Made by a program: the position numbers and the translations under genes
Assembly (NCBI GenBank): GCA_031291675.1
Contig: JARLIO010000062.1
Coordinates: 1 to 64,000 of the forward strand
Direction of reading: 5' to 3'
Length of the DNA: 64,000 nt
Origin: Azospirillaceae bacterium
GTDB lineage: Bacteria > Pseudomonadota > Alphaproteobacteria > Azospirillales > Azospirillaceae
Shown here: piece after piece, positions 43,463 to 61,514 of the stretch
Layout of the letters: every line of letters starts with the position of its first letter
How positions within the stretch are numbered: the stretch's first letter is position 1
Notes under the pieces: generated by a model
Databases searched by the model: none
What the model was told of the DNA's origin: nothing
The model's input: only the letters and a program-made list of their open reading frames with translations

Positions 43463-43466
43463 TGCG

Positions 43467-43709
43467 TCAGGTCTCGATGTCGTAAAGGCATTCGCCCGCC
43501 ATCACAGCGTCTTCGTTTTCCAGATGGAATGCGACGATCTTGCCGGCCTCTTCGGCGACGACCGCCGTGAACGTCTTCATCACCTCAATGAGGCCGATCG
43601 TGTCGCCGATGGCGATCATGTCCCCCTCGCTCTTGAAGGGCGGCTGATCCGGCGCCGGCTTGCGATAAAAGATGCCGGGCAAGGGGGACTGAACTGTTTT
43701 CAGTGGCAT
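43467..43709 (-). CDS. Short biotin carboxyl carrier protein
   Basis: 80 aa from ATG 43709 (MPLKTVQSPLPGIFYRKPAP). A stand-alone biotinyl domain: IGLIEVMKTFTAV carries the biotin Lys at 45 in EVMKT. Much shorter than housekeeping AccB because the N-terminal arm and linker are absent. Located directly before the biotin carboxylase, it is its obvious partner. Confidence 0.88.
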   Translation of the reverse strand: MPLKTVQSPLPGIFYRKPAPDQPPFKSEGDMIAIGDTIGLIEVMKTFTAVVAEEAGKIVAFHLENEDAVMAGECLYDIET

Positions 43710-43773
43710 GCGCGGAAACTCCTGGTTCGACGTGTCAAGGGACCACGGATTGGTTGGTACGGCAGGGCTGCCG

Positions 43774-44505
43774 TCACTTGTGGATGCGGCCGTCCATCCC
43801 GAGTGCCTTATGCACGGCAGCCGCAATCAGATCCGCACCGGGGGTATCGGAATGAAGGCACATTGTTTCGGTGCCGACGCGGATATCCTTGCCACCAACC
43901 GAACGGACCAGGCCTTCGCGCAGGGCCCGCAGCGCCCGTTCCGCTGCGGCATCCGGATCGACAGCGGCGTGTTCGCGCGTCACGATCAGCCGGCCCTCGT
44001 CGGAATAGTCGAGATCAAGATAGAATTCGGGGATGAACGCGTGGCCGCGCTCCCGGTAGACGCGCTCGTGTTCCGTCTCGATCAGGCCGATCAACGGCAC
44101 CTTGAAGACGTCGGCCGCATCGCAGATCGCATGCGCGATGACCGGATCGCACGATGCCATGACAAAGAGCGATCCATGCGGCTTGATGTGATGCAGGGTC
44201 ATGCCTTCCGCCTCAAGGAAGCCTTTCAGCGCGCCGATCTGGTAAATGACGCAATTGGCCAGTTCCTCGCGGCCGATCTTCATTTCGCGCCGGCCGAACC
44301 CCTGCCGGTCCGGCAGCGATGGATGCGCGCCGACCTTGACACTGTGCTGCTTGGCGAGCCGGACGGTTGCCCGCATGTGGTTGAAGTCGGAGGCGTGGAA
44401 GCCGCATGCGACATTGGCAATGTGGATGGCCGGCATGATGCGACTGTCATCGCCCAACCGCCAGATCCCGAAGCTTTCACCCATGTCACAATTGATCAAC
44501 GTCAT
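43774..44505 (-). CDS. pxpA: 5-oxoprolinase subunit PxpA (LamB/YcsF family)
   Basis: 243 aa from ATG 44505 (GGGAG upstream; MTLINCDMGESFGIWRLGDD). ANVACGFHASDFNHMRATVR, VKVGAHPSLPDRQGFGRREM and IKPHGSLFVM are hallmark segments holding the metal- and substrate-contacting residues of the family. First gene of the long minus-strand operon; the spacer to the divergent LysR gene carries the likely promoter and operator. Confidence 0.9.
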   Translation of the reverse strand: MTLINCDMGESFGIWRLGDDSRIMPAIHIANVACGFHASDFNHMRATVRLAKQHSVKVGAHPSLPDRQGFGRREMKIGREELANCVIYQIGALKGFLEAEGMTLHHIKPHGSLFVMASCDPVIAHAICDAADVFKVPLIGLIETEHERVYRERGHAFIPEFYLDLDYSDEGRLIVTREHAAVDPDAAAERALRALREGLVRSVGGKDIRVGTETMCLHSDTPGADLIAAAVHKALGMDGRIHK

Positions 44506-44809
44506 TGGCATCTCCCATGGCGGCGAACGGCCATGGCGCAATCGTGACAAGAAGCGGTCACTATTGTAAAATTCAAATTTTCCGTTCAGTGTATCGATAA
44601 AATTGATACTGTTGTTCGAATTGAAGGCAGCAGGTGCTATGCGCATAAATAATAGGCAGAAAAATCGGGTGACATCGGCGATACGCTCGGCGGGCCACCC
44701 CTTCGGGGATCTTGAAAAGCGTTATTTGTCAATAGAATAACGGAGATTTCCGGGAGCGCGTCAAGATGTGCGCCGCAGCAAAACACCGGTAAGGCAATAG
44801 GCAGTAAAC
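44506..44809. promoter_or_regulatory. Divergent promoter region of pxpA operon and lysR, with LysR-type box
   Basis: 304 bp, AT-richer than the surroundings. The dyad gtatcgataaaattgatac at 44591-44609 (arms gtatcgat / attgatac, 7 of 8 paired) fits the T-N11-A style of LysR-type binding sites, and aaattcaaattt at 44569-44580 is a second palindrome beside it. A regulator binding here could repress its own gene and activate the operon when an inducer is present. Inferred from layout only. Confidence 0.5.
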
Positions 44810-46350: not shown

Positions 46351-47610
46351 TCAAAACAACTCTATTGCAACAGTCCCTGCCTGGTGGCGAGAATCCCGAT
46401 CAGGCGACGGGTCGTGATTGGCCTTGAGTTCGGCGATGATGGCGGTGACCGCTTGATCAAGCTCGGATCGTATGAGTTGATCAACTTCCCCAGAGGCGTT
46501 GGCCGTAGGATTGGTTGCTTCGTCGATCGTTGTGGCAATGGTTTTAGAAATCCGGTCGAAGCAATGAACGAGTGACGTCAAGCGGTGCTTCACCACGTCC
46601 TGAAACTGGATAGACCCGATCATTTGCATAATCGGTATGCTCAAACTTTCGTTTTCACGTTGTACCTTGGTCAAGATATCGCGTTGATAGTCCACGAGTT
46701 TGTGCAAGTTTTCGGTCAATTCACCGACGGCTGTCGATATAACGGCGAAGCCGCCCTCCTCCTTCCGATTGCGATCCCCAATTACGGTGCTCAGACTTGC
46801 CGCCACCACGTCTCGCAACTCATCGATTCCAGCGCCAATCTCGACAGCGGCCTGATCCGACTGCTGCGACAAAATCTTCACCTCGGAAGCGACAACAGCG
46901 AATCCCGTCCCGGCTTCGCCGGCACGCACCGCCTCAATGGTGGCGTTCAAGGCGAGCATGCGCGTGGACTTGGCGATGCCACGAACCGTCTGAACCATTT
47001 TCCCGAGATTGGCGACCACAGCGCTGATATCTGCCATTGCTCGCTGAACATTTTCGGCATCGCGACTCCGTTCTGCAGAAAACTGCTCAACCAATGATCG
47101 ACTACGACCGAGTTGCAGCTCTGTCTTCTCATTGATCTTGGCGACTTGATTGTTTGTTTCATCGATGTGCGATAGTATATCCTCCAAACTACATTCAACG
47201 ATATTGAGATTTGTCATCAATTTAATAGCATTGTTGTCCGTATCCGTGATAATTGTGCTTGTTTCTTCTTTCATTGATTCAGAGAGTTTGATAAAAAAAG
47301 AGACATTCTCACCTTTATAGAATGTCGACTGAAAGAAAGCGGTGTCCGTCGACGCCTGTCCAGTTCGATTTGGAACGGTTCCTATAACAGGCAGGGCGGA
47401 AGGAAATTCACGGATCTGCCATGTTTTTTTCGTTCTATAGGACAATGTGAGATAGGCCGTCACAATAATCAGCGCAGATGTTACGAGCGGGGCAATAACC
47501 ATTGAAGACATCATCGCCGGTAGCAGGACACGACTCATTTCATCGAGCAGAACGCCCAGAAACGCCATGATGGCAAGCGAAAATCGGGACTCGGCGACAA
47601 ACTTCTTCAT
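46351..47610 (-). CDS. Membrane methyl-accepting chemotaxis protein with QFQD motif
   Basis: 419 aa from ATG 47610 (a GTG at 47619 is an alternative start). Two hydrophobic segments at about 10-60 place it in the inner membrane with almost no periplasmic domain. The signalling hairpin tip is STRMLALNATIEAVRAGEAG near residue 215. A later helix carries MIGSIQFQDVVKHRL, a CheZ-like QFQD signature also present in the neighbouring 227-aa protein. The order of domains suggests a receptor that senses within the membrane or cytoplasm. Last gene of the chemosensory cluster. Confidence 0.85.
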   Translation of the reverse strand: MKKFVAESRFSLAIMAFLGVLLDEMSRVLLPAMMSSMVIAPLVTSALIIVTAYLTLSYRTKKTWQIREFPSALPVIGTVPNRTGQASTDTAFFQSTFYKGENVSFFIKLSESMKEETSTIITDTDNNAIKLMTNLNIVECSLEDILSHIDETNNQVAKINEKTELQLGRSRSLVEQFSAERSRDAENVQRAMADISAVVANLGKMVQTVRGIAKSTRMLALNATIEAVRAGEAGTGFAVVASEVKILSQQSDQAAVEIGAGIDELRDVVAASLSTVIGDRNRKEEGGFAVISTAVGELTENLHKLVDYQRDILTKVQRENESLSIPIMQMIGSIQFQDVVKHRLTSLVHCFDRISKTIATTIDEATNPTANASGEVDQLIRSELDQAVTAIIAELKANHDPSPDRDSRHQAGTVAIELF

Positions 47611-47663
47611 TTTTTTCACTCATCTTCCAGACTTGCCACTAAAATTCTCTGCATAACTACTCC

Positions 47664-48347
47664 CTAATACATCTCGATTTTTGGTCCACTCGGCTCATGG
47701 AGATCGAGTCCTACGGCGGTATGGTGGTCTTCGCGTTGGCTGGTCATGACGCAGTCGTCGAGGGCCTTGTCGAACATGTCTTTGAAGTTTGTCATGCGAT
47801 CCATCGACCGCCTGTTACCCAACTGTCGTGCAAGGTTGATCATGTGCTGGTCAACGATAAGAGATAGACGCGCCAGGAAAGCAATCTGCTGCTGTGTGAC
47901 GTCCTGAAACTGGAGTTGTCCCAACATCCCGATCACCGGGGCACCAACAGCGTCAACCAGAGGACGCAATTCGTCGGCTTCGATGTGAGCGGAACAATCG
48001 ATCATGGCCCGGAGGCGGTCGACATTGGCATCCATATCCCTGAGCCCGGTGGCGATCACGGTGGCCGCTTCGCAAGTGCTTTCGGTAATGCGGGTTCCCT
48101 GGGCACGGAGCAGCCGCGTGAACGCGGGGTACTGGGCGAGATCGTCGGCAACCTTGATCATTTGCGTGCGGATGGCGGCCGGCATCGAGCGATCCTTTCG
48201 GCCCAGCGCATATCCGATTGCTGCGGCGACAAGCGAACCCGTCGCGGCCAGTGCCGCGCCGGACGCGCTTCCGGATGCGGCAAAGGTTGCGGCCGCGGAG
48301 GTCGTCGCCAGTAGTAATGCGACCGTGACTATCCTTATCAGCATCAA
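47664..48347 (-). CDS. Membrane-anchored QFQD-motif protein of the chemosensory cluster
   Basis: 227 aa. Residues 1-50 are hydrophobic and small-residue rich (signal anchor). The rest is helical, with MLGQLQFQDVTQQQIAFLAR at about 140-160. That sequence resembles the catalytic helix of CheZ phosphatases (QDFQDLTGQ) and the C-terminal QFQD helix of some receptors. There is no receptor tip motif. It lies between the membrane receptor and cheY on the same strand. A role in dephosphorylating CheY~P is suggested by the motif but unproven. Confidence 0.6.
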   Translation of the reverse strand: MMLIRIVTVALLLATTSAAATFAASGSASGAALAATGSLVAAAIGYALGRKDRSMPAAIRTQMIKVADDLAQYPAFTRLLRAQGTRITESTCEAATVIATGLRDMDANVDRLRAMIDCSAHIEADELRPLVDAVGAPVIGMLGQLQFQDVTQQQIAFLARLSLIVDQHMINLARQLGNRRSMDRMTNFKDMFDKALDDCVMTSQREDHHTAVGLDLHEPSGPKIEMY

Positions 48348-48396
48348 CTTGTTGTTCCTGCGGCTCTGACAAACGCGGGCAATGGGGTCCGGCCAC

Positions 48397-48771
48397 TCAT
48401 CCGTTGGGCAGTATTTGTTTCGCGACCTTCAGAAGATCGTCCGGCTGCACCGGCTTGACCAGCCACCCTGTCGCCTTGGCGGCGCGGGCTTCATCCCGCT
48501 TGGCCTGCTGCGATTCGGTGGTGACCACCAGGATCGGTGTGAACTGGAAGCCCGCCATGGCGCGAACCTTGCGGATGAGCTCGATGCCATTCATCCCCGG
48601 CATATGGATGTCGGTGATGATCATGTTGGGCTTGAGACCGCCTTGGAGCTTGGTCACGGCTTCCTCGCCGCTGGCCGCCTTGGCGACCATAAAACCAGCC
48701 TTGCGCAGGATGGCCTCCATGCTCATCTGGGTCGTCGCCGAGTCATCGACGATGAAAATAGTTGATGGCAT
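48397..48771 (-). CDS. cheY: CheY-type single-domain response regulator
   Basis: 124 aa from ATG 48771, which overlaps the parA stop by one base. Receiver fold complete: acidic pair in FIVDDSA, phospho-Asp 54 in MIITDIHMPG, Thr in VVTTES, Lys in WLVKPVQ. No output domain. It is phosphorylated by CheA and delivers the signal, probably to the flagellar motor or another target. Confidence 0.92.
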   Translation of the reverse strand: MPSTIFIVDDSATTQMSMEAILRKAGFMVAKAASGEEAVTKLQGGLKPNMIITDIHMPGMNGIELIRKVRAMAGFQFTPILVVTTESQQAKRDEARAAKATGWLVKPVQPDDLLKVAKQILPNG

Positions 48772-49595
48772 CACGGAACCTTCCGTTGTAATTCGAGGGA
48801 ACCCATTCCCACCCTGTCTGTGCCGACGGGCGACCAATGCCAGAAACTCGCCAACGCGGTGGCGAGCAGGTTGTAGTCCAACGCACCGCGCGAGCGTGGC
48901 GCGAAATATCGGATTGGTTGGCGCGCTCCAAAAGCGGCAGCCAACTGAATGTCGGTGCGAATAGGATGCAGCATGCGCTCGGGCCCGAACTGGCGGGAAA
49001 TATCGGCAATCACAGCCCGATTGTGTCCGATTCTCTCGTTCGCCATGACCGGCAACAGTCCAATCAGTTTCAAACTGGGGTTGACAGTGGTTACCGTCTT
49101 GTAGAACAGACGCGACAATTGCCTGACACCCTCGGCGGACAAGGCATGCGCCAACAACGGAATGACAATGCCATCGGCGGCCGCCATGGCATTGGTCAGG
49201 ACCAGATCAAGGGATGGGGGCGTGTCAAGAACAATGATGTCGTAGATGTTCATCTCCGGGCGGCGTATTTGGCGGTCCAGGAGCGACGCATCGCGAATAG
49301 AGACCATTCCATCGTAGAGAGGATCGGCGGGCACGCACCAAAGATTGGCCCAAACCGTTGCATGCACCGCTGAAGCGATATCGAATTCGGGATGGTGGAA
49401 GAGGTCGTGGGCGCTGGGCGCCGATTTGTCCGCGTCCACACCCAGTCCGAAGCCGGCATGTCCCTGGGTATCGAGGTCGATGACCAGGACGCGCCGGCCT
49501 TGGGACGCCCATTCGGCGGCCAGGTTGACGGCTGTCGTGGTCTTGCCACTGCCCCCCTTGCGATTGGTGATGGCCAGGACAAAGGGCTGCGTCAT
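48771..49595 (-). CDS. ParA/MinD-type ATPase of the chemosensory cluster
   Basis: 274 aa from ATG 49595, overlapping the STAS gene stop by 4 bases. Deviant Walker A KGGSGKTTTAVN after AITNR, then VLVIDLDTQGHAGFGLG and DIIVLDTPPSLD, define a ParA-type ATPase. ParA-like proteins in chemotaxis operons position or segregate receptor arrays (ParC, PpfA). No parB is present, so the partner may be the CheA, STAS or receptor proteins encoded beside it. Confidence 0.88.
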   Translation of the reverse strand: MTQPFVLAITNRKGGSGKTTTAVNLAAEWASQGRRVLVIDLDTQGHAGFGLGVDADKSAPSAHDLFHHPEFDIASAVHATVWANLWCVPADPLYDGMVSIRDASLLDRQIRRPEMNIYDIIVLDTPPSLDLVLTNAMAAADGIVIPLLAHALSAEGVRQLSRLFYKTVTTVNPSLKLIGLLPVMANERIGHNRAVIADISRQFGPERMLHPIRTDIQLAAAFGARQPIRYFAPRSRGALDYNLLATALASFWHWSPVGTDRVGMGSLELQRKVP

Positions 49596-49849
49596 TTGGT
49601 TTCCTTCTCCCCTGATGCCCCCAGCGCCTGCGACAGCAAGCCGGACAGGACCGGGTCTTGCGGGAGAACCGTGATTTTCGGGCGCGCCGCCAACAGAACC
49701 TGGAGAACCGCTGTATGCAGATGGCGGCAAGGACCGAGGTCGACCTTCGCTCCCCGATGAGACTGAAGATATTCCAACAGCGGCAGCGCATCCTCGACGG
49801 TGCACAACGTCTCGGCGGTTGCCGTATTCTTGGCGAAGCTGAATGGCAT
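49592..49849 (-). CDS. STAS-domain protein
   Basis: 85 aa. VEDALPLLEYLQSHRGAKVD then LGPCRHLHTAVLQVLLAARP is a compact STAS (anti-sigma-antagonist-like) fold; the usual phospho-Ser position reads CRHLHTA, with His/Thr instead of a clear DSSG motif. Starts 2 bases after the cheA stop and overlaps parA. STAS proteins bind partners and could tether CheA arrays to ParA; this is inference. Confidence 0.7.
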   Translation of the reverse strand: MPFSFAKNTATAETLCTVEDALPLLEYLQSHRGAKVDLGPCRHLHTAVLQVLLAARPKITVLPQDPVLSGLLSQALGASGEKETK

Positions 49850-49851
49850 GG

Positions 49852-52473
49852 CTAAAGAAGCTCCCGGAGGTTGAGGACCAGCAACACCCGTCCATCGCCC
49901 AGCAGCGCCGAGCCGGAATAGCCTTGGATATCGGCAAGAATACCGTCGAAGGGCTTCAAGATGATGTCCATGCCCTCGCGAAAGTGATCGACCAAAAGGC
50001 CGACCAGGCCGCCGCCGACCCGCACCACCAGCACGGCATCCTCGTCGCTGCCGTCGCCGAACCAGGCCGACGGCTCGACGCCCAACAAGCGGTCGAGCCG
50101 AATGATCGGGACGATGGCGTCACGGAGGACGAAGGCCTCGGACTGCTTGAAGCGGTGTACCGCGTCGCGATGCACGCGCACGGTTTCGGCGATGTGGTCC
50201 ATGGGAATGCCGAACAGCATGCCGCCGCCGGCTTCGACCACCATGACCCGGGTCACCGCCATACTCAGCGGCAGGGACAGGCGGACCGTCGTCCCCTGGC
50301 CCATCACCGAGATGATCGAAACGCTGCCGCCGACCTTTTCCACGCCATTGACCACCACATCCATGCCGACGCCACGTCCTGACAGGTCGGAAACCTGGGC
50401 GGCGGTGGAGAAGCCAGGAGTGAACACCAAGTTCACCGCCTCCTGATCGGTGAGGCGGGCTGCCCGCTCTTCGTCGATGACACCCTTGGCGAGGGCAGAA
50501 GCCTTGATCTTTTCCGGATTGATGCCGCGGCCATCATCGACGACCTCGATCACCACCTGATCTCTTTCCTGAAAGGCCCGCAAGAGGACGGTGGCTTGAG
50601 TCGACTTGCCGCTGGCGTCGCGCTCGTCGGGCAACTCGATGCCATGATCGATGGCGTTCCTGACGATATGCAGGAGAGGATCGCCAAGGGCCTCGATGAT
50701 GTTCTTGTCGGCGGCGGTGTCGGCACCCTCAATAGACAGTTCGATTTGTTTGCCCAGTTTGCGCGCCACGTCGCGGACCAGTCGCGGGAATCGGTCGAAC
50801 ACCTCGGAGACCGGAAGCATACGCACCGCCATGATGGCGCCGTGCATCTCCTGCGCCAATCGGTCGATCACCGCATGGAGATCCTTGATTTCGCGGCTCA
50901 TCTCGCGAGAGCCATGAACTTCTTCGGCCCGTTTGGCGAGAAAGGGCAGACTGTTCTTCGATACGACCAACTCCCCGATCAGGTTCATCAAGGTGTCGAT
51001 CTTGGCCTGGTCCACCTTCAGGACGCGGCTCGTCTGCTTGATTTCCTGGATGAGATGCTCGCCGGCTTCCGGCCTGACCGATGCTGCTGACGGGTGGTTC
51101 GCCGCGAGCCATCGGTCCAGGACCTCGATCACCGGGGCCGCGTTGTCTTGCGCAATGGCCGCATCGACCGCCCTCGACCAGGCCGCCAGATCGTCGGCTC
51201 GGTGGCCTTCGGCCGCCAGCAGATTGGTGACAGTCTGCGCCACCGATCCGAGGCGCGCTGCGATATCACCTCCCGCCGTCAATAAACCGAGGATGGCACG
51301 CTGGCTTTCCAGAATGCGGACCGCCGTGGAAGACACTTTGCCCGGATCAGTGCGTCCGGGGGCTTCCGGGACGGCGGTCGGGTCGGGCAAGTGCCGAGAA
51401 CCCGAGTTCGCCAATGCGGCCGGTTGAGCTGCCTTCACAGGCCGGAAATTGGACTCTCCGTCAGCTATGCAGGCGATAAGAGCATTCACCCAGTCTGAAT
51501 TCGGCACCGGCACAGCGAGAATGGCGTCCAACCAGCGTAGCGCCGAAGCCAAGAGCAGGGTCGGGGCGGTGAGTTGCAGCAACGCACCGACCGCGCGCCG
51601 AAGCGGGGGCCAATCCCCGGCGGCGATCAGCGGGTATGCCTCATCGACGAAGTCGCCATAAACCGGGCCACCATTGGGATCCCCGGTCAGCGAAATCAGG
51701 AGTTCGGGAGGCACGGAAGCCACCCGCACTTGCTCGACGACATAACGGAACAACGTCTCCACTTCAACGCGCGGCATCGCCGCAAGCGCACGAAAGCAAA
51801 GAACGCAGCGATAGGGGTCGAGATGATCGATCACCGGCCATGGCTCGGTCGGTTCGATTGCAAGGCTTTGAAGATCCGCCAATTGCCGGACCAGGGCCAA
51901 GGGGTCCTCGCCGCTGAAAAAGCAATCTTGCAACGGCGCATACTCAATGGCTTGGATCTCGGCGCCATCCATCGCTTGGGCGAAGGCCGCCAACCTGTCC
52001 TTTTCGGGAAGCGCCGCCAACCAGTCGAGGCCGACCAGCTCTCCGGTGCGGACGGCAGAAGCGGTTGCCTGAGACGCCCCGAAATCGGCCGGCAAGACCG
52101 CTCGCAGACCGGCAGTCATCTCCCTGGACGCCCCATCGGCATCTTTCGGCAGCGTGCCGGTGGTGTCGATGGCATCGACCCACGCGCTGACCTGATCAAA
52201 CGTATCCAGCAGCCTGTCAACCAGTTCGGACGTCAAAACAAGTTGGCGGGCGCGGACGAGGCTCAACACATCTTCACCGGCATGCACCAGTTTGGTGAAG
52301 GCGGGAAAGTCGAACAGTCCTACGGAGCCCTTCAGCGTATGAACGGAACGAAAGACCTCATTGACGGCGGCTTCATCGCCCGGTTGCCTTTCCAGGATCA
52401 ACAGGCCGGTGGCGGCTGCCTGCAGCAGGTCGCGCGCTTCGCTGACAAAGCGTTCGAGCAGCGGGGTGCTCAT
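49852..52473 (-). CDS. cheA: Chemotaxis histidine kinase CheA
   Basis: 873 aa. Hpt domain with phospho-His 45 in FRSVHTLKGSVGLF. A long variable middle (about 130-480), partly helical, has no recognisable repeat of Hpt. The dimerisation helix region is around 500-560 (KIDTLMNLIGELVVSKNSLP). The ATPase domain has N-box HIVRNAIDHGIELPDE, G1 DDGRGINPEK and G2 SGRGVGMDVV. The C-terminal CheW-like domain is from about 740. Intact at all kinase motifs. Autophosphorylates in response to receptors and feeds both receivers and CheB. Longer than E. coli CheA because of the middle region. Confidence 0.93.
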   Translation of the reverse strand: MSTPLLERFVSEARDLLQAAATGLLILERQPGDEAAVNEVFRSVHTLKGSVGLFDFPAFTKLVHAGEDVLSLVRARQLVLTSELVDRLLDTFDQVSAWVDAIDTTGTLPKDADGASREMTAGLRAVLPADFGASQATASAVRTGELVGLDWLAALPEKDRLAAFAQAMDGAEIQAIEYAPLQDCFFSGEDPLALVRQLADLQSLAIEPTEPWPVIDHLDPYRCVLCFRALAAMPRVEVETLFRYVVEQVRVASVPPELLISLTGDPNGGPVYGDFVDEAYPLIAAGDWPPLRRAVGALLQLTAPTLLLASALRWLDAILAVPVPNSDWVNALIACIADGESNFRPVKAAQPAALANSGSRHLPDPTAVPEAPGRTDPGKVSSTAVRILESQRAILGLLTAGGDIAARLGSVAQTVTNLLAAEGHRADDLAAWSRAVDAAIAQDNAAPVIEVLDRWLAANHPSAASVRPEAGEHLIQEIKQTSRVLKVDQAKIDTLMNLIGELVVSKNSLPFLAKRAEEVHGSREMSREIKDLHAVIDRLAQEMHGAIMAVRMLPVSEVFDRFPRLVRDVARKLGKQIELSIEGADTAADKNIIEALGDPLLHIVRNAIDHGIELPDERDASGKSTQATVLLRAFQERDQVVIEVVDDGRGINPEKIKASALAKGVIDEERAARLTDQEAVNLVFTPGFSTAAQVSDLSGRGVGMDVVVNGVEKVGGSVSIISVMGQGTTVRLSLPLSMAVTRVMVVEAGGGMLFGIPMDHIAETVRVHRDAVHRFKQSEAFVLRDAIVPIIRLDRLLGVEPSAWFGDGSDEDAVLVVRVGGGLVGLLVDHFREGMDIILKPFDGILADIQGYSGSALLGDGRVLLVLNLRELL

Positions 52474-52901
52474 GGCACCGTCACCCCCGCGACCAGTCGT
52501 GCCACCTCGGTCAGTTCATCGGGAGGAATCGGCTTGACCAGATAGAAGTTGGCTCCAGCCTCATAGGCTTTGGCGGCATCCCTGTCACCCGCCTCGGTGC
52601 TGATCATCACGGCCGGGACCCCGCGCACGGCCGGTTCGCCACGGATCAACTGCATCAACGCGTATCCGTCCAGTTTCGGCATGTTGATGTCGACGATCAT
52701 CAGATCAAAAGCCTGGGTCAGGACCTTCTCGTAGCCCTCCATACCGTTGGCGGCTTCCTCGACCAGGAAGCCGGCCGCTTCCAGCACCGAGCGGTAGAAC
52801 ATGCGCATGGTGATTCCGTCATCGACCACAAGCACGCGCGGTCGCCTTCCTCGCATGTCGCTGTCATGGCCTCTCGCCAACGGTTTGTTCAAGGCAGTCA
52901 C
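52470..52901 (-). CDS. Receiver-domain protein (second CheY-like)
   Basis: 143 aa if started at GTG 52901, which overlaps the cheR stop (GTGA) and would give coupled translation; ATG 52853 (MRGRRPRVLVVDDG) is the alternative. Receiver motifs intact: VLVVDDGI, phospho-Asp in LMIVDINMPKLDG, Ser/Thr in VMISTEAG, Lys in FYLVKPIPP. Overlaps cheA by 4 bases. May act as phosphate sink or second output. Confidence 0.88.
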   Translation of the reverse strand: MTALNKPLARGHDSDMRGRRPRVLVVDDGITMRMFYRSVLEAAGFLVEEAANGMEGYEKVLTQAFDLMIVDINMPKLDGYALMQLIRGEPAVRGVPAVMISTEAGDRDAAKAYEAGANFYLVKPIPPDELTEVARLVAGVTVP

Positions 52902-53776
52902 TCCACGGACAGGGGCTTCTGGTAGACGATGGTTTCCCCGAACTTGCGCGGCAGGAAAATCGAGGACATTCGGCTCATGCTTTCAGAATGGCCGAGGCAG
53001 ACAAATCCGCCAGGCCCCAGGGCATCGAAAAACATCTCGACGGTTTCACGTCGGCCCACATCGTCGAAATAAATGAGAAGGTTGCGGCAGAAGATAACGT
53101 CGATATTGCGAAAACGGTGAGTCTGTAGCGAATCGATGACGTTGACCAAAGAAAAGTCGATGGATTCACGCAACTCGTCACAGATCTGGAAATTTCCGTC
53201 GGGTCGGGGGATGAAATACTTTGACCGCAACGGGGCCGATACGCGTGACAGCGATCGTTCGCTGAACATCCCGGTCCGCGCCGCGTGAAGGATTTTGGAA
53301 TCGATGTCGGAGGCGGAGATTTCGATATCCCAGGTATCGGCCTGAGACCAGCGCTCAAGGATGCTGATGGCGATGGAATAGGGTTCCTCGCCCGACGAAC
53401 AGGGAATCGACCATATGCGGATCGGCTCTTTGGGACGTTTGGTCCGCGCGATCTCTGGCAGGATCGCGTCGACCAGGGCGTCGAACTGGTAGTCCTCGCG
53501 AAAGAAATAGGTCTCGTTCACCGTCATCGCATTAACCAGGAGCTGCAGTTCCTCGCCGGTCGTCTGAAAACGCACCATGGTGAAATAATCTCGAAACGAT
53601 TCCGCACCTGTTTTTTCGATACGATCCGCAATTCTCCGTTCAACGAAGTATTTCTTGCCAGCCTGGAACTGGATTCCGGATTTCCGGTAGAAAAATTCGC
53701 AGAACTTTGCGTACTCCTCGTCGGTCATCGCGGGAGACTGATCCTTCAGGCGAGCGGCGGTTGAAGCGGCCATCAT
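52898..53776 (-). CDS. cheR: Chemotaxis protein methyltransferase CheR
   Basis: 292 aa. An N-terminal helical domain precedes the SAM fold; TVNETYFFREDYQFDALVDA, IWSIPCSSGEEPYSIAI and FCRNLLIYFDDVGRRETVEM are CheR hallmarks. Methylates glutamates on receptors. Overlaps the HEAT-repeat gene by 4 bases. Confidence 0.93.
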   Translation of the reverse strand: MMAASTAARLKDQSPAMTDEEYAKFCEFFYRKSGIQFQAGKKYFVERRIADRIEKTGAESFRDYFTMVRFQTTGEELQLLVNAMTVNETYFFREDYQFDALVDAILPEIARTKRPKEPIRIWSIPCSSGEEPYSIAISILERWSQADTWDIEISASDIDSKILHAARTGMFSERSLSRVSAPLRSKYFIPRPDGNFQICDELRESIDFSLVNVIDSLQTHRFRNIDVIFCRNLLIYFDDVGRRETVEMFFDALGPGGFVCLGHSESMSRMSSIFLPRKFGETIVYQKPLSVE

Positions 53777-54373
53777 TGCCCCTCAATGCGGCGCATGGCC
53801 GCGTCGATGGCGAATTCCATGAAGGCGTTGCCGTCATACCGGCGACGCAGGTTCTCCAGATCGATCAGCGTCTCTAGACTGCCGATCTCCGCCAAGGCGT
53901 CCACTGCGGCGGCGCAGACATTGATGTGAGGATCGGATCGCACCACCTCGGCCAGCCATTCGGGGGCTTGGGCATGACGCAACGCACCCAGGATATTGAC
54001 GGCGAAAATGCGCACGTCGCTGTCCTCATCGGCCAGTAAATCCTGCAGATGGGGAGCGATGGCATCGGGCATCTCCTGAAGAGCCTCGATAGCGGCGTTG
54101 CGCAACGGGACGTCCTCGCTCCTCAGATGGGCGGCCAGGCGGACCGCTACCGCTGGGGATTGGAGATGGATCAGGGTGGTCAACAGCACCGCCCGCACAC
54201 TCGGGCTGGCCTCGATTTCCAAGCGGTCGCACGCCGGCATGGCGGCTTCCGGATGGGCGGCAAGATCACGGGCGGCGGCGCGGCGCACCGATGGCTCGGC
54301 GGCGGACAGATCATCCAGCAAAGCCGCCAGATCGCGCACCGGCGTTTCCGCCGTCGTCAACATGTTCTGCCTG

Positions 54374-54393
<20 letters not shown>
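53773..54393 (-). CDS. HEAT-repeat protein of the chemosensory cluster
   Basis: 206 aa from ATG 54393 (MALVKSSRQNMLTT), overlapping the cheB end by 20 bases. Four to five HEAT-type helical repeats, e.g. PSVRRAAARDLAAHPEAA, DVPLRNAAIEALQEMPDAIA, DSDVRIFAVNILGALRHA. HEAT proteins are protein-binding scaffolds. Its fixed place between cheR and cheB, with overlaps on both sides, marks it as a genuine component. A role in array assembly or adaptation is inferred. Confidence 0.8.
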
Positions 54394-55501
<1,108 letters not shown>

Positions 55502-55510
55502 GATTTCCCG

Positions 55511-55735
55511 GTCACTTTCCTTTCGTCATCCCCGCGAAAGAGCGTGTGAAGAAGTCAGCGCCCGTGGCACCGGCGTTTCCGCCCGCGATGCCATCGGGGC
55601 CGGCACATCTGCGCACTTCCTTGGGCATTCCGGGCGTTCCCCCCAGGTTTTTCGGCTTTCGCCGAAACCGCGGGTGGAGACGCCCGCGCCACGGATCAGA
55701 TCCCTGCTTTCGGGGATGACGAGGAAAACGGTGAC
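55511..55735. repeat. Palindromic intergenic element inside the chemosensory cluster
   Basis: Ends gtcac...gtgac; inside these, tttcgtcatccccgcgaaag (55521-55540) is nearly the inverse of ctttcggggatgacgaggaaa (about 55708-55727). The sequence cgtcatccccgcgaaag is a widespread intergenic repeat word in alphaproteobacteria. It is the only sizeable noncoding interval between cheW and cheB and may carry a promoter or processing site. Confidence 0.5.
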
Positions 55736-55741
55736 AACGCG

Positions 55742-57331
55742 TCACATCACCGCCTTGCTGGCGGCATTCAGCTCCTTGGTGTCGAGCAACTGATCGGTGT
55801 CCAGCAGCAGGATCATTCGATGCGTCTTCTCGATATTCGCGACCCGGCGGATCAATCGTTGCTGCTCCTCCGACAGGTTGGGCGACAGGCCGATGACCGA
55901 GGCGGGGATCCGCATCACCTCGAGCACCTGGTCGACGATAAAGCCGGTCCTCACGCCGCCGATGGTGTAGACCATGATCCGTTGGCGATCGTTGCGTTCC
56001 ATCGACGGCAGGCCAAAGCGCCGGCGCTGGTCCACCACCGGCAGGACGACGCCGCGCAGATTGACCACCCCTTCCAGAAAGTCCGGCGTTTTCGGCACGC
56101 GGGTGAGTTCGTCGGGAACGCGAACGATCTCCTGGACCGATTCGATGGGAACGCCATATTCTTCATTCATCAGGCGGAAGACGACGAATTGCTCCTCGTC
56201 GTCGATGACGCTGGTGCGAACGTCCACGCTTTCATCGGCCATCACCGCTTTCTCCCCGCCATCGCCGCCGCCATCGCCGCTGACGACGGCCCGGATGTCG
56301 CCCGTATTGAACATCCTCTCGGAAGCCAGGATCGACACCAACCGCTTGCCTTCGTTCAAACGGCAGATCGACTGGAACTCGCTGAGATTGCCGTTGCGGG
56401 CCAGCAAGGCCGGCATGGGATCGATGACCGATCGTCCGACCCGCAGAACTTCCTTGACGCTGTCCATCATGACGCCGACCGACATGGCCGAGGCGTCGTT
56501 GCCCAAGGACACGACAACGATTTTGTTGGTGTCGGTGACGTCCTGAGGCGGCAAGCCGAACATGTCGCGGAGGCTGACCAGGGGCAGCAGCCGGTTCCTC
56601 AGCGTCATCACGCCCAGAACATGCGACGGGGTGTTGGGAACCTCAGTGATCTGCTCGGGGATCTGGACGATTTCCTGGACCTGCTCGATGGGCAGGGCAT
56701 ATTCCTGCCCGGCCACCTCGAAACTGACCAATTGGCTTTCGTCGCTGCCGTCTTCGGCAAGTTTGGTTTCCTTGCGGCTGTCCGCGTGAGTGCCCGGTCC
56801 GCCCAAGGTCTGTTTGATCGCCTTGCCGACCGCCTTGAACTCCCGCGCCACCACCTTTGCGGCATCCAGGATCATCACCATCGACCGTCCGTCGCTGGCC
56901 TTGATCATGCCCGTCATCAGGTCGTTGTCGACAGTGCCCTGGATGCCTTCAACCGACTCGATGCGGTCGGTTTCCACGGTCACCACATTGGCGACGCGAT
57001 CGACCACCAGGCCGACCGGGCGTCCCTGGTCGAGGATGACGACGCGTGTCGAATCGTCGTGCTCGACGGCGCTCATGCCGAAAATCTGGCGCAACCGGAT
57101 CACCGGCAGCATGGTTCCCCGCAGATTGGCGAGACCTTCGAGCGCACCCGGGCTCAACGGAACCTTGACGACTTCGGGCATGCGGATGATTTCCTGCACC
57201 TCGGCCAGAGGTACGGCGAACATTTCTTCCGCGACATGGAAGATTACAAACTGGCGGGAATCGCCGGCACTGGCGGTGTCTGCCGCGGCCAATTCCGCCT
57301 CGTCACGCACCGCTTCCGCAACTTCGGACAT
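55742..57331 (-). CDS. Coupling protein with three CheW domains in tandem
   Basis: 529 aa from ATG 57331 (AGGAGG 7 bases upstream). Three full CheW domains: about 20-170 (RQFVIFHVAEEMFAVPLAEV, LANLRGTMLPVIRLR), 190-345 (SQLVSFEVAGQEYALPIEQV, VMTLRNRLLPLVSLRDMFGL), 370-520 (EQFVVFRLMNEEYGVPIESV, VVNLRGVVLPVVDQRRRFGL). Each keeps the NLRG-type loop that contacts receptors or CheA. A CheW normally has one domain and links CheA to receptors in hexagonal arrays; a triple one could bridge several positions. Follows the double-signalling receptor by 38 bases. Confidence 0.92.
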   Translation of the reverse strand: MSEVAEAVRDEAELAAADTASAGDSRQFVIFHVAEEMFAVPLAEVQEIIRMPEVVKVPLSPGALEGLANLRGTMLPVIRLRQIFGMSAVEHDDSTRVVILDQGRPVGLVVDRVANVVTVETDRIESVEGIQGTVDNDLMTGMIKASDGRSMVMILDAAKVVAREFKAVGKAIKQTLGGPGTHADSRKETKLAEDGSDESQLVSFEVAGQEYALPIEQVQEIVQIPEQITEVPNTPSHVLGVMTLRNRLLPLVSLRDMFGLPPQDVTDTNKIVVVSLGNDASAMSVGVMMDSVKEVLRVGRSVIDPMPALLARNGNLSEFQSICRLNEGKRLVSILASERMFNTGDIRAVVSGDGGGDGGEKAVMADESVDVRTSVIDDEEQFVVFRLMNEEYGVPIESVQEIVRVPDELTRVPKTPDFLEGVVNLRGVVLPVVDQRRRFGLPSMERNDRQRIMVYTIGGVRTGFIVDQVLEVMRIPASVIGLSPNLSEEQQRLIRRVANIEKTHRMILLLDTDQLLDTKELNAASKAVM

Positions 57332-57369
57332 GGGTGTCCTCCTGTTGGCCAAAATTGATTGCGGAAACG

Positions 57370-59304
57370 TCAGGCGGTGGCTTGCAGTTCATCGGCAAGC
57401 GAGGCGATCTCTTCGATTGCCGCAGCCAGTTCTTCGGCCCCCTTGGCCTGCTGCTTGGCAGCAACACCCGCCTCGCCGGTAGCCCGGGTGGTCTGCTGGG
57501 CGGCGGCGGCGATCTGTTCGACGCCGGTTTGAACTTCCTTGACGACGCGGACGATCTCGTCTGAACCGTCGAGGATTTCCTTGTTGCCGGTCACCACGAC
57601 GGCCATGTCCTTGGTCACCGTTTCCAGATCGGCGCTGATCACCTTGTTCTTCTCGACCTCGCTGGCGGCGGTATTGCCGATCTCCTCGAGGTCGCGGCGC
57701 ACCCTGCCGATCTGGTCCTGGATCGCTTTGACCGTGTCCTTGATGCGATCGGCGTTCTCGGCCGAGTCACGGGCAAGGTTGCGGATGTCGGTGGACACCA
57801 CGGCGAAACCCTTGCCGAACTCGCCGGCCCTTGCCGCTTCGACCGAGCCATTGACCGCCAGCATGTTGGTCTGGATTGACACCGTGGTGATGGCATCGAC
57901 GATCTTGTCAATGCGGCGACTGATTTGCTCGAGTGCTGTCATCTGTTCGCGGCTTTGTTTACCGGCTTCGACCGAAGCCAGGACGCCGTCGATCAACTCG
58001 TCCATCGCCCTCTTGTTGTTGGCCAGCAATCCCGAGATGGCCTCACCCTTATCGACCGCGGTCTTGGCATTGGTGGCCGACAACTGCGCTGCCCGTTCGA
58101 TTTCGGCGATCGCTGCCGAGGATTGCTGGGTCGCCGCTGCCTGCTGCTGGGCGCCTTTCTGGATCTGTTCCAACGCGACCATGATCTGCGAGGCGGCGCG
58201 GTTGATCTCCTCCACCGCCGAGGACAATTCTTCGGCCGCCGAGGCGACCTCCTCGCTGCTCTTCGAGATATCGGTCGAGTTTTTCAGTTCATCGGCAAGC
58301 TCCGACAACTCCTGCGATGCCTGTTCTGACTGAGTCAGTGCCACGGTCTGCTGGTCGATGGTCTTCAGGGATTCCTGGCAGGCGGCGCTTTGCTCCTCGG
58401 CGGCGGCGGCGATGATCTCGGATCCCTTTTGCGCTTCGCTGGCGCCCGTGTTGGCTTCCTCGGATGCTTTGGCAATCTCACGACCACCATTGGCGATCTC
58501 GACGATGTCGAGGCGGATCTGCTCCAACTGGGACGTGACGATTTTGCCTTTCTCCACCTCCTGTTTAGCATTGTTGGCCGAGGTGCTGATGCCCTCCGCG
58601 ATGACCTTGACGTCCTTTTGAATCTGGGCGATCAGGTCCTGGATCTCACGGGCGCTCTTTTCGCTGGTTTCGGCCAGCGTACGCACTTCATCGGCAACAA
58701 CGGCGAAGCCTTTGCCGTGCTGACCGGCCCGTGCCGCCTCGATGGCGGCGTTCAATGCAAGAAGGTTGGTTTGGTCAGCAATGCGGGCCACGGCCTTGAC
58801 CACTTCCGAAATCGCCGCCGCCTGGCGCTCAAGCTCTTCCACCATTTTGACCGAGGTTTCCTGGCGCTCCGCAGCACGGCCGATGGCGACGATGGAGTTG
58901 GTGAGTTGGACAGAGACGTTCTGCAACAGTGTCTGCAACGCCTCGGCCTTGGCAACCGAGAGATCGGCATTTGCTTTCGCCTTAAGGATCAGGGCGCCAC
59001 CGTGGGTTACCGCTTTCTGCGATTCCTGGGCTGCCCCGGCCGCCTCCTCGGCGCCCTGGGCGATCTGTTCGGACGCCTTGCGCAGTTCCTCAGCGGCCGA
59101 CGTCGCCTCAGCGATGCCGCTGGCCAGTTGAGAGGTGGCGGCGGCGATCCGCTCGGCCGCCTTCTGCTGACGGGCGAAAGTCCGCGCCTTGCGCTTCTGG
59201 GCTTCAGCCAGCAACTTGCTTCCGTTTCCGACACCAGCGTCACCGGTCTCAGCCACTCTGGCCACGACGGATCCACTGATCTGGTTTCTCTTCACAAGAG
59301 CCAT
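57370..59304 (-). CDS. Soluble chemoreceptor with two signalling domains (DosM-like)
   Basis: 644 aa from ATG 59304 (GGAAA upstream). No hydrophobic segment: fully cytoplasmic. Almost entirely coiled coil, with two receptor tips: [18 protein letters not shown] near residue 178-195 and [20 protein letters not shown] near 478-498, each followed by GKGFAVV. Repeated [20 protein letters not shown]-like segments lie between. Receptors with two signalling hairpins are rare; DosM of Vibrio cholerae links two layers of a cytoplasmic array. First gene of the operon, before the triple CheW. Confidence 0.88.
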
Positions 59305-59439
59305 GCTTATTTCCTTTGCACTATCGTCACGAGACGTAGCCAATCAGAGAAATCCTTATTTGCGCTAGGAACCTAGTCCACAAGTATTTTGGTAGACAAG
59401 TGCATCAATGGATCTCAATGCAAACGATACCTAAGCGTA

Positions 59440-60099
59440 TCAAACGATCTCTCTCTCCTCTTCGGCCAGAAGTGCTACGACCGCTTGTGCACGGTTGGTG
59501 GCGTTGACTTTTTTGAATATTCGACGGAGTCGAGACTTAACGGCCGACTCTGGGATATCGAGCTGCGTTGCCATGAGCTTGTTGGGTAACCCGGTCAGCA
59601 ATAACGAAATGACATGTCTTTCGGCACTCGAAAACCGTTCCGACACTGTAGATCCGGGGAAGACTGTTTTCGGCTTGCGCTTGATCCCCACCCCCTCAGC
59701 AAGTGAGAGCAGAATTTCTGCTGGAAGGTAGATTTGCCCCTCCATCACAACATGAAGCGCTGCGAGCATGCCGTTAACGGAAATGGTCTTGAAAATCACC
59801 CCCTTGGCACCAGCGCTAATGGCCTCCAGCATATGCGTAGAGTCGGCGATAGATGTCAGCAAAACAACTTTAGTTAATGGAAATTTTTCAACAAAATTAA
59901 CGATTCCAGACGTATTATCCATTCCTGGGAGAGTGTACGAAAGTAACGATAATTCGAATGTGCTTTCAGATGACGACTTTGAGAGTGCACCTTCGAAATC
60001 ATCAACCTCAACAATATCAACGCGAGAGCTAAGTCTTGGCAAAAACTGGCAGATGCCCTCTCGTAATAGTCTATGGTCGGAGGCTATTAGAACCCTCAT
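59440..60099 (-). CDS. LuxR/NarL-type response regulator with degenerate receiver
   Basis: 219 aa. N-terminal receiver-like fold MRVLIASDHRLLREGICQFL, but the phospho-acceptor segment reads ELSLLSYTLPGMD, with Ser 54 where Asp is expected; Lys 104 (VIFKT) and Thr 82 remain. The C-terminal LuxR HTH is at about 155-215: FSSAERHVISLLLTGLPNKL, AVKSRLRRIFKKVNATNR. It is a DNA-binding regulator unlikely to be controlled by Asp phosphorylation. Lies 135 bases upstream of the receptor gene on the same strand, so it may regulate the chemosensory operon or be a neighbour only. The DNA is less GC-rich than the cluster. Confidence 0.8.
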   Translation of the reverse strand: MRVLIASDHRLLREGICQFLPRLSSRVDIVEVDDFEGALSKSSSESTFELSLLSYTLPGMDNTSGIVNFVEKFPLTKVVLLTSIADSTHMLEAISAGAKGVIFKTISVNGMLAALHVVMEGQIYLPAEILLSLAEGVGIKRKPKTVFPGSTVSERFSSAERHVISLLLTGLPNKLMATQLDIPESAVKSRLRRIFKKVNATNRAQAVVALLAEEEREIV

Positions 60100-60482
60100 G
60101 CCGGAACAACCTATCTGAATGTGACATGGTCTTATTTATCGTTCTCAATAACATTGGCAATATGTCGCGGCGAGGCATTCGATTGAAAGCGTCGGCTATC
60201 GAACGATATGACTGGCTATCAGATGAAAGTCTGAATGCATTTCAATGACCTTGTCAGAGGAATTGGGTAGTGGCTGAGTTTTCCCGTCTGTTCGAGCCAG
60301 TCAGAGGGCGACCATTTCGGTTGATATCATGGCTGCCGCAGTGTTGGCGACGGGGTGTCGTCCGGAGGAGCAGGAGATGAACGGAGGACGGTGGCGTTGG
60401 TGCAGGAATCGGACGCGATCCTGAAAGCCCGGTGTCAGCCAGTTTCCGATCGCCTTCTGCCGCTCTGGTTGTGATCGCTCGA
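60100..60482. other. Spacer upstream of the LuxR gene, leading into IS5 debris
   Basis: The left third is AT-rich and likely holds the promoter of the minus-strand regulator. The rest (from about 60254) is GC-rich, with no credible gene on either strand; it may be eroded transposon sequence because an IS5 fragment follows directly. Confidence 0.35.
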
Positions 60483-61150
60483 TGCCGAACAAGCACTACA
60501 ACGAAGTCCGCTATTAATTTCCCAAAGCCCGGTATCGGGGTGAGAACTGGCGGACGTCCCGATGCGGCGCCTGGCCTTTGGGCGACCCTGGTGGCAGACC
60601 GAAGGTTTGCTGCGTTCGGTGGCGATGCTGCTGGGTTTGGCCAGCGACATTCGCGACTCTGCGACGCTCTGTCCTTGGCCACCGCCCTGAGCCAGACGGT
60701 TGGCCCCGTCATTATGATGATCGACAGCACCGGGCTGAAGGTCTTCGGCGCCGGCGAGGGAATGGTCGCCAACCATGGCGGCCGCGACCGGCAGACTTGG
60801 CGCAAACCGCATCTGGCGGTCGATCCGGACAGCGGTGAGATCCTGGCCTCGGCCCTGACCGGCACCGAGGACGGCGACGCCTCGCTGGTCGGGCCGCTGC
60901 TCGATCAGATCACCGCGCCGATCACCACCGTCCTGGCCGATGGCGCCGACACCGCGCGATCGTCACATCGCGATGATCGCCGGCAAAGGTCGGCTGGCAT
61001 GGCGGAAAGCTGTCGGCTACGGCCGGCGCTCCCTCGTCGAGACAGCGATGTTTCGTTACAAGACCGTCGTTGGGCGGACCCTTCGGACCCGGAATCTCTC
61101 TGCCCAAAAGATCGAGGCCAGGATCGACGATCCCCGTGCTTTGGCAAGCC
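60483..61150 (+). pseudogene. IS5-family transposase, degenerate with several frameshifts
   Basis: Starts MPNKHYNEVRY then TAA. Pieces in different plus frames follow in transposase order: QTEGLLRSVAMLLGLASDIR; MMIDSTGLKVFGAGEG and HGGRDRQTWRKPHLAVDPDS (DDE-type core); then HIAMIAGKGRLAWRKAVGYG and RRSLVETAMFRYKTVVGRTL. Internal deletion and frameshifts make it nonfunctional. The C-terminal piece matches the fragments near 9.45 and 46.0 kb. Confidence 0.8.
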
Positions 61151-61334
61151 CCAGAGTCACAGCCCCAGAGTCACATCGAGCGTTCACTGGTATAAAATAT
61201 ACGTTCCTATATTGTTCTATACTGACGTATCAGCGGCGCCTGCGATGATGATGCAGCGAGAATTCGGTTTTTGGATGCAGACACCGCTTCGCGGTGAGCG
61301 GGCGCGGAGACCCGCTCCCCTCAGGTCGCGATGT

Positions 61335-61514
61335 GTCAAGATCATGGCGGACTGGTCTTATACCAATCCGCTTTGATCGTGACCGATCAAAGCGAAGCCT
61401 CAGGCGCCGGCGCGCCCGTCCGGGCGCTTGGCTCCGCGCCACGTGGCGCGCGGTCGCCGTCGCGACCGTACCAGTCCGCCATGAGTCAAGATCATGGCGG
61501 ACTGGTCTTATACC
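61335..61514. repeat. Direct and inverted short repeats downstream of the IS5 remnant
   Basis: A 30-bp word beginning gtcaagatcatggcggactg occurs exactly at 61335-61364 and 61485-61514, both ending ttatacc. A shorter inverted copy (accagtccgccatga) lies at 61469-61483. Between them is a hairpin tttgatcgtgaccgatcaaa. No gene is seen in 61151-61673. Probably transposon-end or REP-type repeats. Confidence 0.65.

Follow-up and report, generated by a model that had tools for sequence, protein, structure and literature searches.

What kind of chemosensory system is encoded between positions 46351 and 59343 of this stretch of Azospirillaceae DNA, and how might it switch off its response regulator, CheY? 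The stretch (hereafter the window, 64,000 nucleotides, contig C27 of a 5.87-Mb genome) carries genes for a soluble receptor of the DosM type, a triple CheW (CheW3), CheA, CheB, CheR and CheY, together with a membrane receptor and a small membrane protein with the motif QFQD, here called the QFQD protein. Genome-wide there are four CheA matches and 68 matches to the methyl-accepting chemotaxis protein (MCP) domain. PMC7534058 describes the role of the F9 class (cluster I of Vibrio cholerae) as poorly understood, that of the F7 class as unclear and VC1394 as little known. Our reading, to which we give a probability of about 0.68, is that the window encodes an F9 system, that the QFQD protein is probably its phosphatase for phosphorylated CheY (CheY-P), and that the jobs of receptor and phosphatase are split between two proteins in this genome. 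A broader version of this proposal, which we hold at somewhat better than even odds, is that many F9 and F7 clusters switch off CheY through a CheZ site in the C-terminal helix of a small membrane receptor, and that here this arrangement has separated into a tip-less enzyme and a receptor whose site is spoiled.

The occupant of the position beside CheY

Three genes of the window bear directly on signal termination.

48397..48771, - strand: CheY-type receiver (Pfam)
47664..48347, - strand: QFQD protein, membrane-anchored, with D149-x-x-x-Q153 (codons ~47903-47889) and tail PKIEMY (hydropathy 2.0; hhalign 98.3%; alignments)
46351..47619, - strand: membrane receptor with D341-x-x-x-H345 (codons ~46599-46585) and tail AIELF (Pfam MCPsignal x1; alignment; AlphaFold2 (AF2) model)

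The QFQD motif occurs in both the small membrane protein and the receptor, and no CheC/CheX domain was found among the window proteins scanned with Pfam. We surveyed the occupant of this position (the slot) in F9 loci collected by a scan with an F9 CheR, which kept at least 80 loci (CheW3 and an MCP-domain gene were both present in 58); the sample is uneven and skewed towards organisms with MTVNETYF- or GEEPYSIA-type CheR. Annotation, with mechanical gene calls and hidden Markov models (HMMs) trained on the same set, identified CheW3 together with an MCP-domain gene in 85 loci. We excluded six for want of CheA or of 3 kb beyond it (L046, L050, L057, L074, L093, L113) and two as duplicates (L088, L116), leaving 77.

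The slot holds a CheC/CheX-type protein only in 36 of these loci, a small receptor with an ELF-like C-terminal tail (tail receptor) only in 35, both in one (L095) and neither in five: L045, L051, L111, L121 and a second F9 cluster of the window's own genome, on contig C57, whose receptor lies just outside the stretch examined. In 32/35 loci the tail receptor gene comes directly after a receiver gene lying on the CheA side (exceptions L089, L133 and L139). The CheC-type gene comes after a receiver in 29/36, at the CheA end in 22 and upstream of DosM in 7. None of the 36 CheC-only loci contains a receptor with [F/Y/S]-Q-D-x-x-x-Q. Both CheC-type proteins scanned with Pfam matched CheX (L055 at 5e-11, L049 at 1.4e-8), with CheC above the cut-off in L055 only. 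For two of the loci with neither type, a genome-wide search with the C-terminal module of the slot receptors found candidates elsewhere: in the L121 genome, a slot-type receptor with a receiver next to it on a different contig (L194, L216), and a 178-residue module open reading frame (ORF), perhaps truncated, at a contig end in the L045 genome (L173, L214).

In a tree of CheA, CheR and CheB built from 80 F9 loci only, the window and C57 clusters are sisters, and their neighbours, Methylobacterium sp. J-077 (L073) and L044, are both receptor-type. The CheC label requires at least three changes on this tree and CheC has two locations, lying upstream of DosM in the A. brasilense group and beyond CheA elsewhere, which suggests repeated replacement rather than one inherited difference. 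Because loci with the same slot label group strongly on the tree, the 77 cannot be counted as independent cases.

Conservation of D-x-x-x-Q in the slot receptors

We aligned 43 tail receptors and set aside the two from the window's own genome, L050 (no alignable motif) and two Aquificota rows, which left 38 with a median identity of 23%. Nine columns are invariant, counting those occupied in L044: four in the tip region, the Q before the motif, the D, the Q at D+4, and the E and F of the tail, where the tail E and the aromatic end had been criteria for selecting the receptors and the D and Q had not. D-x-x-x-Q is present in 38/38 and the longer form [F/Y]-Q-D-x-x-x-Q in 35/38; the two Aquificota rows also keep the D with a Q at +4. 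Both own-genome receptors read D-V-V-K-H in the alignment, the Q having been lost to give D-x-x-x-H, and among the rows aligned with the motif this loss is confined to this genome. In CheZ, according to PMC7750401, a consensus AxxF(Y)Q adjoins the phosphatase motif DxxxQ, both D and Q are critical for activity, and the C-terminus binds CheY.

This conservation could also arise in an ordinary F9 cluster in which the QFQD protein and the slot receptor are mere membrane anchors or adaptors, with D-x-x-x-Q serving a structural or CheY-docking role rather than a catalytic one. A hydrophobic N-terminal segment in 34/43 tail receptors would suit such proteins, as would a similarity to CheZ that stays below threshold and finds no match to CheZ in the PDB or by fold. 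However, the D and Q match the receptor tip in invariance and correspond to the pair of residues reported as critical in CheZ (PMC7750401), the receptor alternates with CheC, and the Q has been lost, among aligned rows, only in the one genome where a separate D-x-x-x-Q protein exists. We consider this explanation unlikely.

The tail invites a different explanation, in which IELF is a tether for CheR and CheB, so that this part of the module serves receptor adaptation and not CheY. The tail does resemble the pentapeptide tether, and V. cholerae System III receptors end in E-W/V-E-X-F (PMC11940527). Against this, PMC7184735 reports that no McpA-like receptor has the tether consensus and that Pseudomonas aeruginosa McpA binds none of four CheRs; moreover, similar IDALFG ends occur on three of the five CheZ-type proteins of this genome, and it is CheY that the CheZ C-terminus binds. 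A tether is a doubtful reading, if slightly less so than the anchor or adaptor.

The QFQD protein as a tip-less relative

The QFQD protein has hydrophobic N-terminal helices (hydropathy 2.0; residues 2-24 and 28-49 in the AF2 model) and no MCP domain by Pfam. Its motif, Q146-F-Q-D149-V-T-Q-Q153, lies in the second helix of a predicted hairpin (helices 87-118 and 124-176; predicted local distance difference test, pLDDT, 66.7), and its conserved tail, ending in IEMY, resembles the IDALFG ends of the three own-genome CheZs. Each of the two own-genome F9 clusters has a separate membrane D-x-x-x-Q protein beside CheY, and this pair aligned with the profile of the slot-receptor C-terminal module at an hhalign probability of 98.3% (E 2e-14), against control values of 0.1% with DosM and 0.1% with other MCPs. 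Since the QFQD protein is homologous to the module and shares with the slot receptors the motif, the tail and often a VMxxQRxxH-like stretch, it is best described as a tip-less relative of them. That it is a simple duplicate of this cluster's own receptor is not clear, because it keeps the VMxxQRxxH-like stretch, which is absent from the window receptor and from the sister receptors L044 and L073.

We considered whether QFQD proteins form a widespread family and rejected this idea: a two-row profile matched no other genome at 1e-4 among 385 of the class, and among 82 family genomes three besides the window's own matched, weakly, at 0.008-0.009. As a whole word, 'QFQD' turned up in three papers of the open-licence literature, all on unrelated subjects.

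Similarity to CheZ

The link to CheZ is consistent across tests and weak in any one of them. Slot receptors aligned with five CheZ-type proteins of the window's own genome at an hhalign probability of 74% with the motif in register, and controls gave 12.4% (DosM) and 6.9% (three other MCPs). Pfam CheZ matched 9/32 slot receptors at E<=1 (best 4.6e-4), and among 32 DosMs it was absent from the matches listed (25 of 55 families). An HMM of the own-genome CheZs, also at E<=1, matched 7/38 slot receptors, both QFQD proteins and 6/18 other module proteins and neither DosMs (0/28) nor other MCPs (0/13). Two standalone module proteins also matched this HMM, a 157-residue D-x-x-x-Q protein between ParA and a receiver (L050/L218; E 1e-5) and one in L213 (E 2.7e-4), neither of which has a Pfam CheZ match. 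In the reverse direction, the module profile found two CheZs in the own genome at E 4e-4 and 1e-3.

The five CheZ-type proteins carry FQD[I/L]TGQ (L153-L158; contigs C18, C84 and C88). One of them ends in many SQSDIDALF-like peptide repeats. On contig C23, a helical protein without a receptor tip (L250, 106300-109500, + strand) carries LQIGDITKQRIEH (G-D-I-T-K-Q) and is a further D-x-x-x-Q candidate.

Several results weigh against a CheZ-type phosphatase in this cluster. The CheZ matches with scores all fall below the Pfam cut-off, and 31/38 slot receptors have no match to the own-genome CheZ HMM at E<=1. The window proteins themselves fare poorly: the receptor has no Pfam CheZ match; the QFQD protein has none to Pfam PF04344 at E<=10, its only three Pfam matches being at chance level, and none in NCBIfam; the QFQD pair aligned with the own-genome CheZs at 7.8%, albeit in register; and the own-genome CheZ HMM gave E 0.098 for the window protein and 0.29 for its counterpart. 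The module profile ranks the uncharacterized helical protein on C23, a 621-residue frame (1.5e-4), above the CheZs, and against the PDB it returned 40 sequences at E<=1 that were coiled-coil noise, with no CheZ. A search for likeness by fold gave no proof either: with the QFQD model Foldseek found nothing at E<=0.001, and with the receptor model (pLDDT 79.8) its 13 matches at that threshold were all chemoreceptors. The similarity could be convergence on a short motif, and any of the five CheZ-type proteins could serve this CheY. Beyond CheZ likeness, CheC is the type used in roughly half of the F9 clusters sampled, and two loci lack a slot candidate: L111, whose genome gave no match in the module search, and L051, whose genome gave three weak ones, at least one of which (L196) reads as CheZ. 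The array itself is drawn by analogy from V. cholerae.

The module in F7-like clusters

Searching 299 genomes of the phylum with the module matched 60 at E<=1e-5, of which at least one (L183) reads as CheZ. Outside F9 clusters, one strong match adjoins a che cluster whose CheW is single (G003, L212), and another has none of the che core genes around it (G185, L215). A further group comprises receptors of about 400 residues with FQDR[T/V]SQ and [D/E][I/L]TFF tails. Of sixteen module neighbourhoods examined, seven (L204-L210) are F7-like by gene order with the module receptor at the head, and in six of these the receptor is followed directly by a receiver and then by CheA or by STAS and CheA. 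A profile of the F7-like modules matched 33/369 genomes of the class searched. Among the matches listed, 30 loci were read: all had Q at D+4 (30/30, the motif being part of the profile), and the next gene was a receiver in 26; one of them, L249, is a 168-residue ORF. FQDxxxQ receptors, mostly with a tail ending in FF, head the F7-like clusters L174-L179, L198, L204-L210 and L220-L249, as a rule with a receiver as the very next gene.

PMC7184735 describes the C-terminus of McpA-like F7 receptors as strikingly conserved, with an 'important yet unclear' role, and reports that stage 1-2 organisms have cheZ with their F6 systems only, F7 systems lacking it. If the receptor itself carried a CheY-P phosphatase, this would account for the conserved C-terminus, for the lack of CheR binding and for the lack of cheZ with F7, and also for the lack of cheZ in the F9 clusters concerned. 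No description of a receptor-borne CheZ site was found in the open-licence literature, judged by the titles listed and the openings of their abstracts.

The F9 class of the cluster

The remaining conserved genes of the cluster are as follows.

57370..59343, - strand: DosM-type soluble receptor, 657 residues (Pfam MCPsignal x2; without a transmembrane segment, maximum hydropathy 0.95)
55742..57352, - strand: triple CheW (CheW3), 536 residues (Pfam CheW x3, 8.7e-101)
54374..55501, - strand: CheB (Pfam; motifs)
53773..54393, - strand: HEAT-repeat protein, start MALVKSS (Pfam HEAT_2; alignment of F9 HEAT proteins)
52898..53776, - strand: CheR (Pfam; NETYFFRE motif)
52470..52901, - strand: receiver protein (Pfam Response_reg)
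49852..52473, - strand: CheA (Pfam Hpt, H-kinase_dim, HATPase_c and CheW; motifs)
49592..49849, - strand: STAS-like small protein, 85 residues (STAS_2 E 0.076, sub-threshold)
48771..49595, - strand: ParA-type ATPase (Pfam AAA_31 6e-35; P-loop)

The original prediction, made from the letters alone, had described twelve genes in this order on one strand as what looked like a DosM-type F9 system with intact CheA, CheR and CheB motifs. It had also suggested a purely cytoplasmic array whose position might be handled by ParA, STAS and HEAT. ORFs and Pfam place all twelve on the - strand; the H, N and G boxes of CheA and the S-H-D of CheB read intact, as do the receiver motifs and the ParA P-loop, and the NETYFFRE motif of CheR is common, with small variations, to most F9 CheRs aligned. 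Three gene starts, taken from the longest ORFs, needed correction (ParA ~49595, HEAT ~54393, CheY ~48771), and the span up to 60099 had reached beyond the conserved cluster by including a LuxR-type regulator. Two points had been missed altogether: the presence of a second F9 cluster elsewhere in the genome, and the QFQD protein as the unusual component. Dozens of loci, spread over several phyla, have nearly this gene order, so the cluster is not a chance arrangement.

The F9 assignment is supported by the DosM and CheW3 signature, the gene order and the distance between the two DosM tips. The signature is DosM together with CheW3, and full F9 clusters are reported from 64/2,781 species (PMC9321776); the window cluster has both a receptor with two signalling domains and a concatenated triple CheW. 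Triple CheW, sought with a profile of the two own CheW3 proteins, was found in 8/398 genomes of the phylum and 20/59 relatives, with the own genome included in both counts. No gammaproteobacterial F9 cluster was found among 295 genomes beyond the two already known.

The distance between the DosM tips is 300 residues in 75 of the 79 sequences in which a pattern located both, the others measuring 299 (one), 301 (two) and 306 (one; L061, G414), and three more measured by eye gave 299, 299 and 300. This set of 82 includes near-copies and the own genome, and the window DosM also measures 300 residues. The tip distance is a strict molecular ruler; if it sets the distance between baseplates, the window array would match other F9 arrays in thickness. 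DosM and the HEAT protein begin with the same short peptide, M-[AGPS]-[LF]-[VIK]-[KR] (MALVKR and MALVKS in the window), and a strict form of this pattern occurs within the first 70 residues of 56/78 DosMs and 40/62 HEAT proteins and of 0/245 CheA, CheB and CheR proteins (L044-L139). Might it be a docking peptide?

By analogy with V. cholerae, DosM, the triple CheW and CheA probably build a two-layered array free of the membrane. Alternatively, the array served by the cluster might be a membrane array whose chief receptor is the membrane receptor, given that the cluster encodes both this receptor and the membrane QFQD protein. A DosM without transmembrane segments, tips 300 residues apart and CheW3 are, however, the marks of F9 (PMC9321776), whose arrays in V. 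cholerae are purely cytoplasmic according to PMC7534058, and we regard a membrane array as improbable.

The second cluster, accessory genes and neighbours

The C57 cluster has the same gene order, with identities to the window of 81% (DosM), 77% (CheW3) and 65% (main CheA segment), and its own QFQD protein is 51% identical to that of the window; its membrane receptor (L070) lies about 4.5 kb further on. After the C57 QFQD gene come a STAS protein, RsbR-like as a reading rather than a database match, and a receiver (L009:2304-3671), which may hint at a stress-response output. The F9 STAS family profile aligned at 85.8% (hhalign) with a Pfam-confirmed STAS protein (7.9e-10) from another che cluster of the same genome and did not match the RsbR-like protein (0.3%).

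HEAT proteins occur in 35/35 receptor-type and 17/36 CheC-type loci, and ParA in 17/35 and 0/36, respectively. ParA is no special feature of the window cluster, since F9 loci of several classes have it too, and it is an optional F9 accessory. Its position within the operon, here and in those 17 loci, would fit a role in placing the cytoplasmic array along the nucleoid. The cytoplasmic clusters of Rhodobacter sphaeroides use a ParA homologue. Nevertheless, ParA was not found in the C57 cluster, in 18/35 receptor-type loci or in any of the 36 CheC-type loci, so ParA is not a general requirement of F9 arrays, and positioning by ParA in the window cluster is a tentative suggestion that falls a little short of an even chance.

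The neighbouring genes lie outside the conserved cluster.

59440..60099, - strand: LuxR-type response regulator, upstream neighbour (Pfam)

A phmmer search with this regulator labelled no gene beyond DosM in either the C57 cluster or L044. An ORF with a transposase DDE domain (60432-61376, +; Pfam) lies immediately upstream of the window cluster, and downstream are biotin carboxylase and LamB/YcsF genes (42092-44646, -; Pfam), a combination that we take to be that of 5-oxoprolinase operons.

A proposed mechanism of signal termination

In the mechanism that we propose, the array of DosM, CheW3 and CheA would control CheY phosphorylation, with CheA phosphorylating the cluster's CheY and CheR and CheB adapting the receptors. 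CheY-P would then be bound by a hydrophobic tail and dephosphorylated at the D-x-x-x-Q of a CheZ-type site encoded beside CheY. Roughly half of the sampled F9 clusters would have this site on the C-terminal helix of a small, usually membrane-bound receptor, with a CheC/CheX-type protein taking its place in the other half. If the tip of the small receptor can join the array, kinase control and signal termination could be coupled.

In this genome, the receptor keeps its signalling tip and would have lost the site (D-x-x-x-H), and the tip-less QFQD protein keeps D-x-x-x-Q and the tail, which together point to a dedicated CheY-P phosphatase. With the enzyme a separate membrane protein, termination would occur at the membrane and the array would lie in the cytoplasm. 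Because the receptor and the proposed phosphatase are separate proteins in the window genome, either could be removed on its own, which makes this genome a natural experiment.

Comparison with known systems

The QFQD protein has the [F/Y]-Q-D-x-x-x-Q of CheZ, predicted to lie in the second of two hairpin helices, as well as a hydrophobic tail at its C-terminus that resembles those of CheZs; it differs from CheZ in being membrane-anchored and undetected by the Pfam CheZ model. The McpA-like F7 receptors (P. aeruginosa McpA/CttP PA0180, V. cholerae VCA1088) are likened here, by gene position and published description rather than by the sequences of the named proteins, to the FQDxxxQ receptors of about 400 residues, mostly ending in FF and usually encoded before CheY.

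The F9 clusters of Azospirillum and Nitrospirillum, which belong to the window's own family, and of Rhizobium and relatives share DosM, CheW3, CheB, CheA and mostly CheR and STAS. In most of those sampled a CheC/CheX-type protein replaces the receptor and the QFQD protein, and no ParA was found, with the exception of Rhizobium sp. NFR03 (L089), which has both receptor and ParA.

Cluster I of V. cholerae (DosM VC1403, CheW3 VC1402, CheA VC1397, VC1394) was compared through its published description only. According to PMC7534058 and PMC11940527, it has in common with the window DosM, a triple CheW, CheA, CheB, CheR, two CheY-type receivers and a membrane receptor of the 24H class. Unlike it, the window genome has a separate QFQD protein, a receptor with D-x-x-x-H and two F9 clusters.

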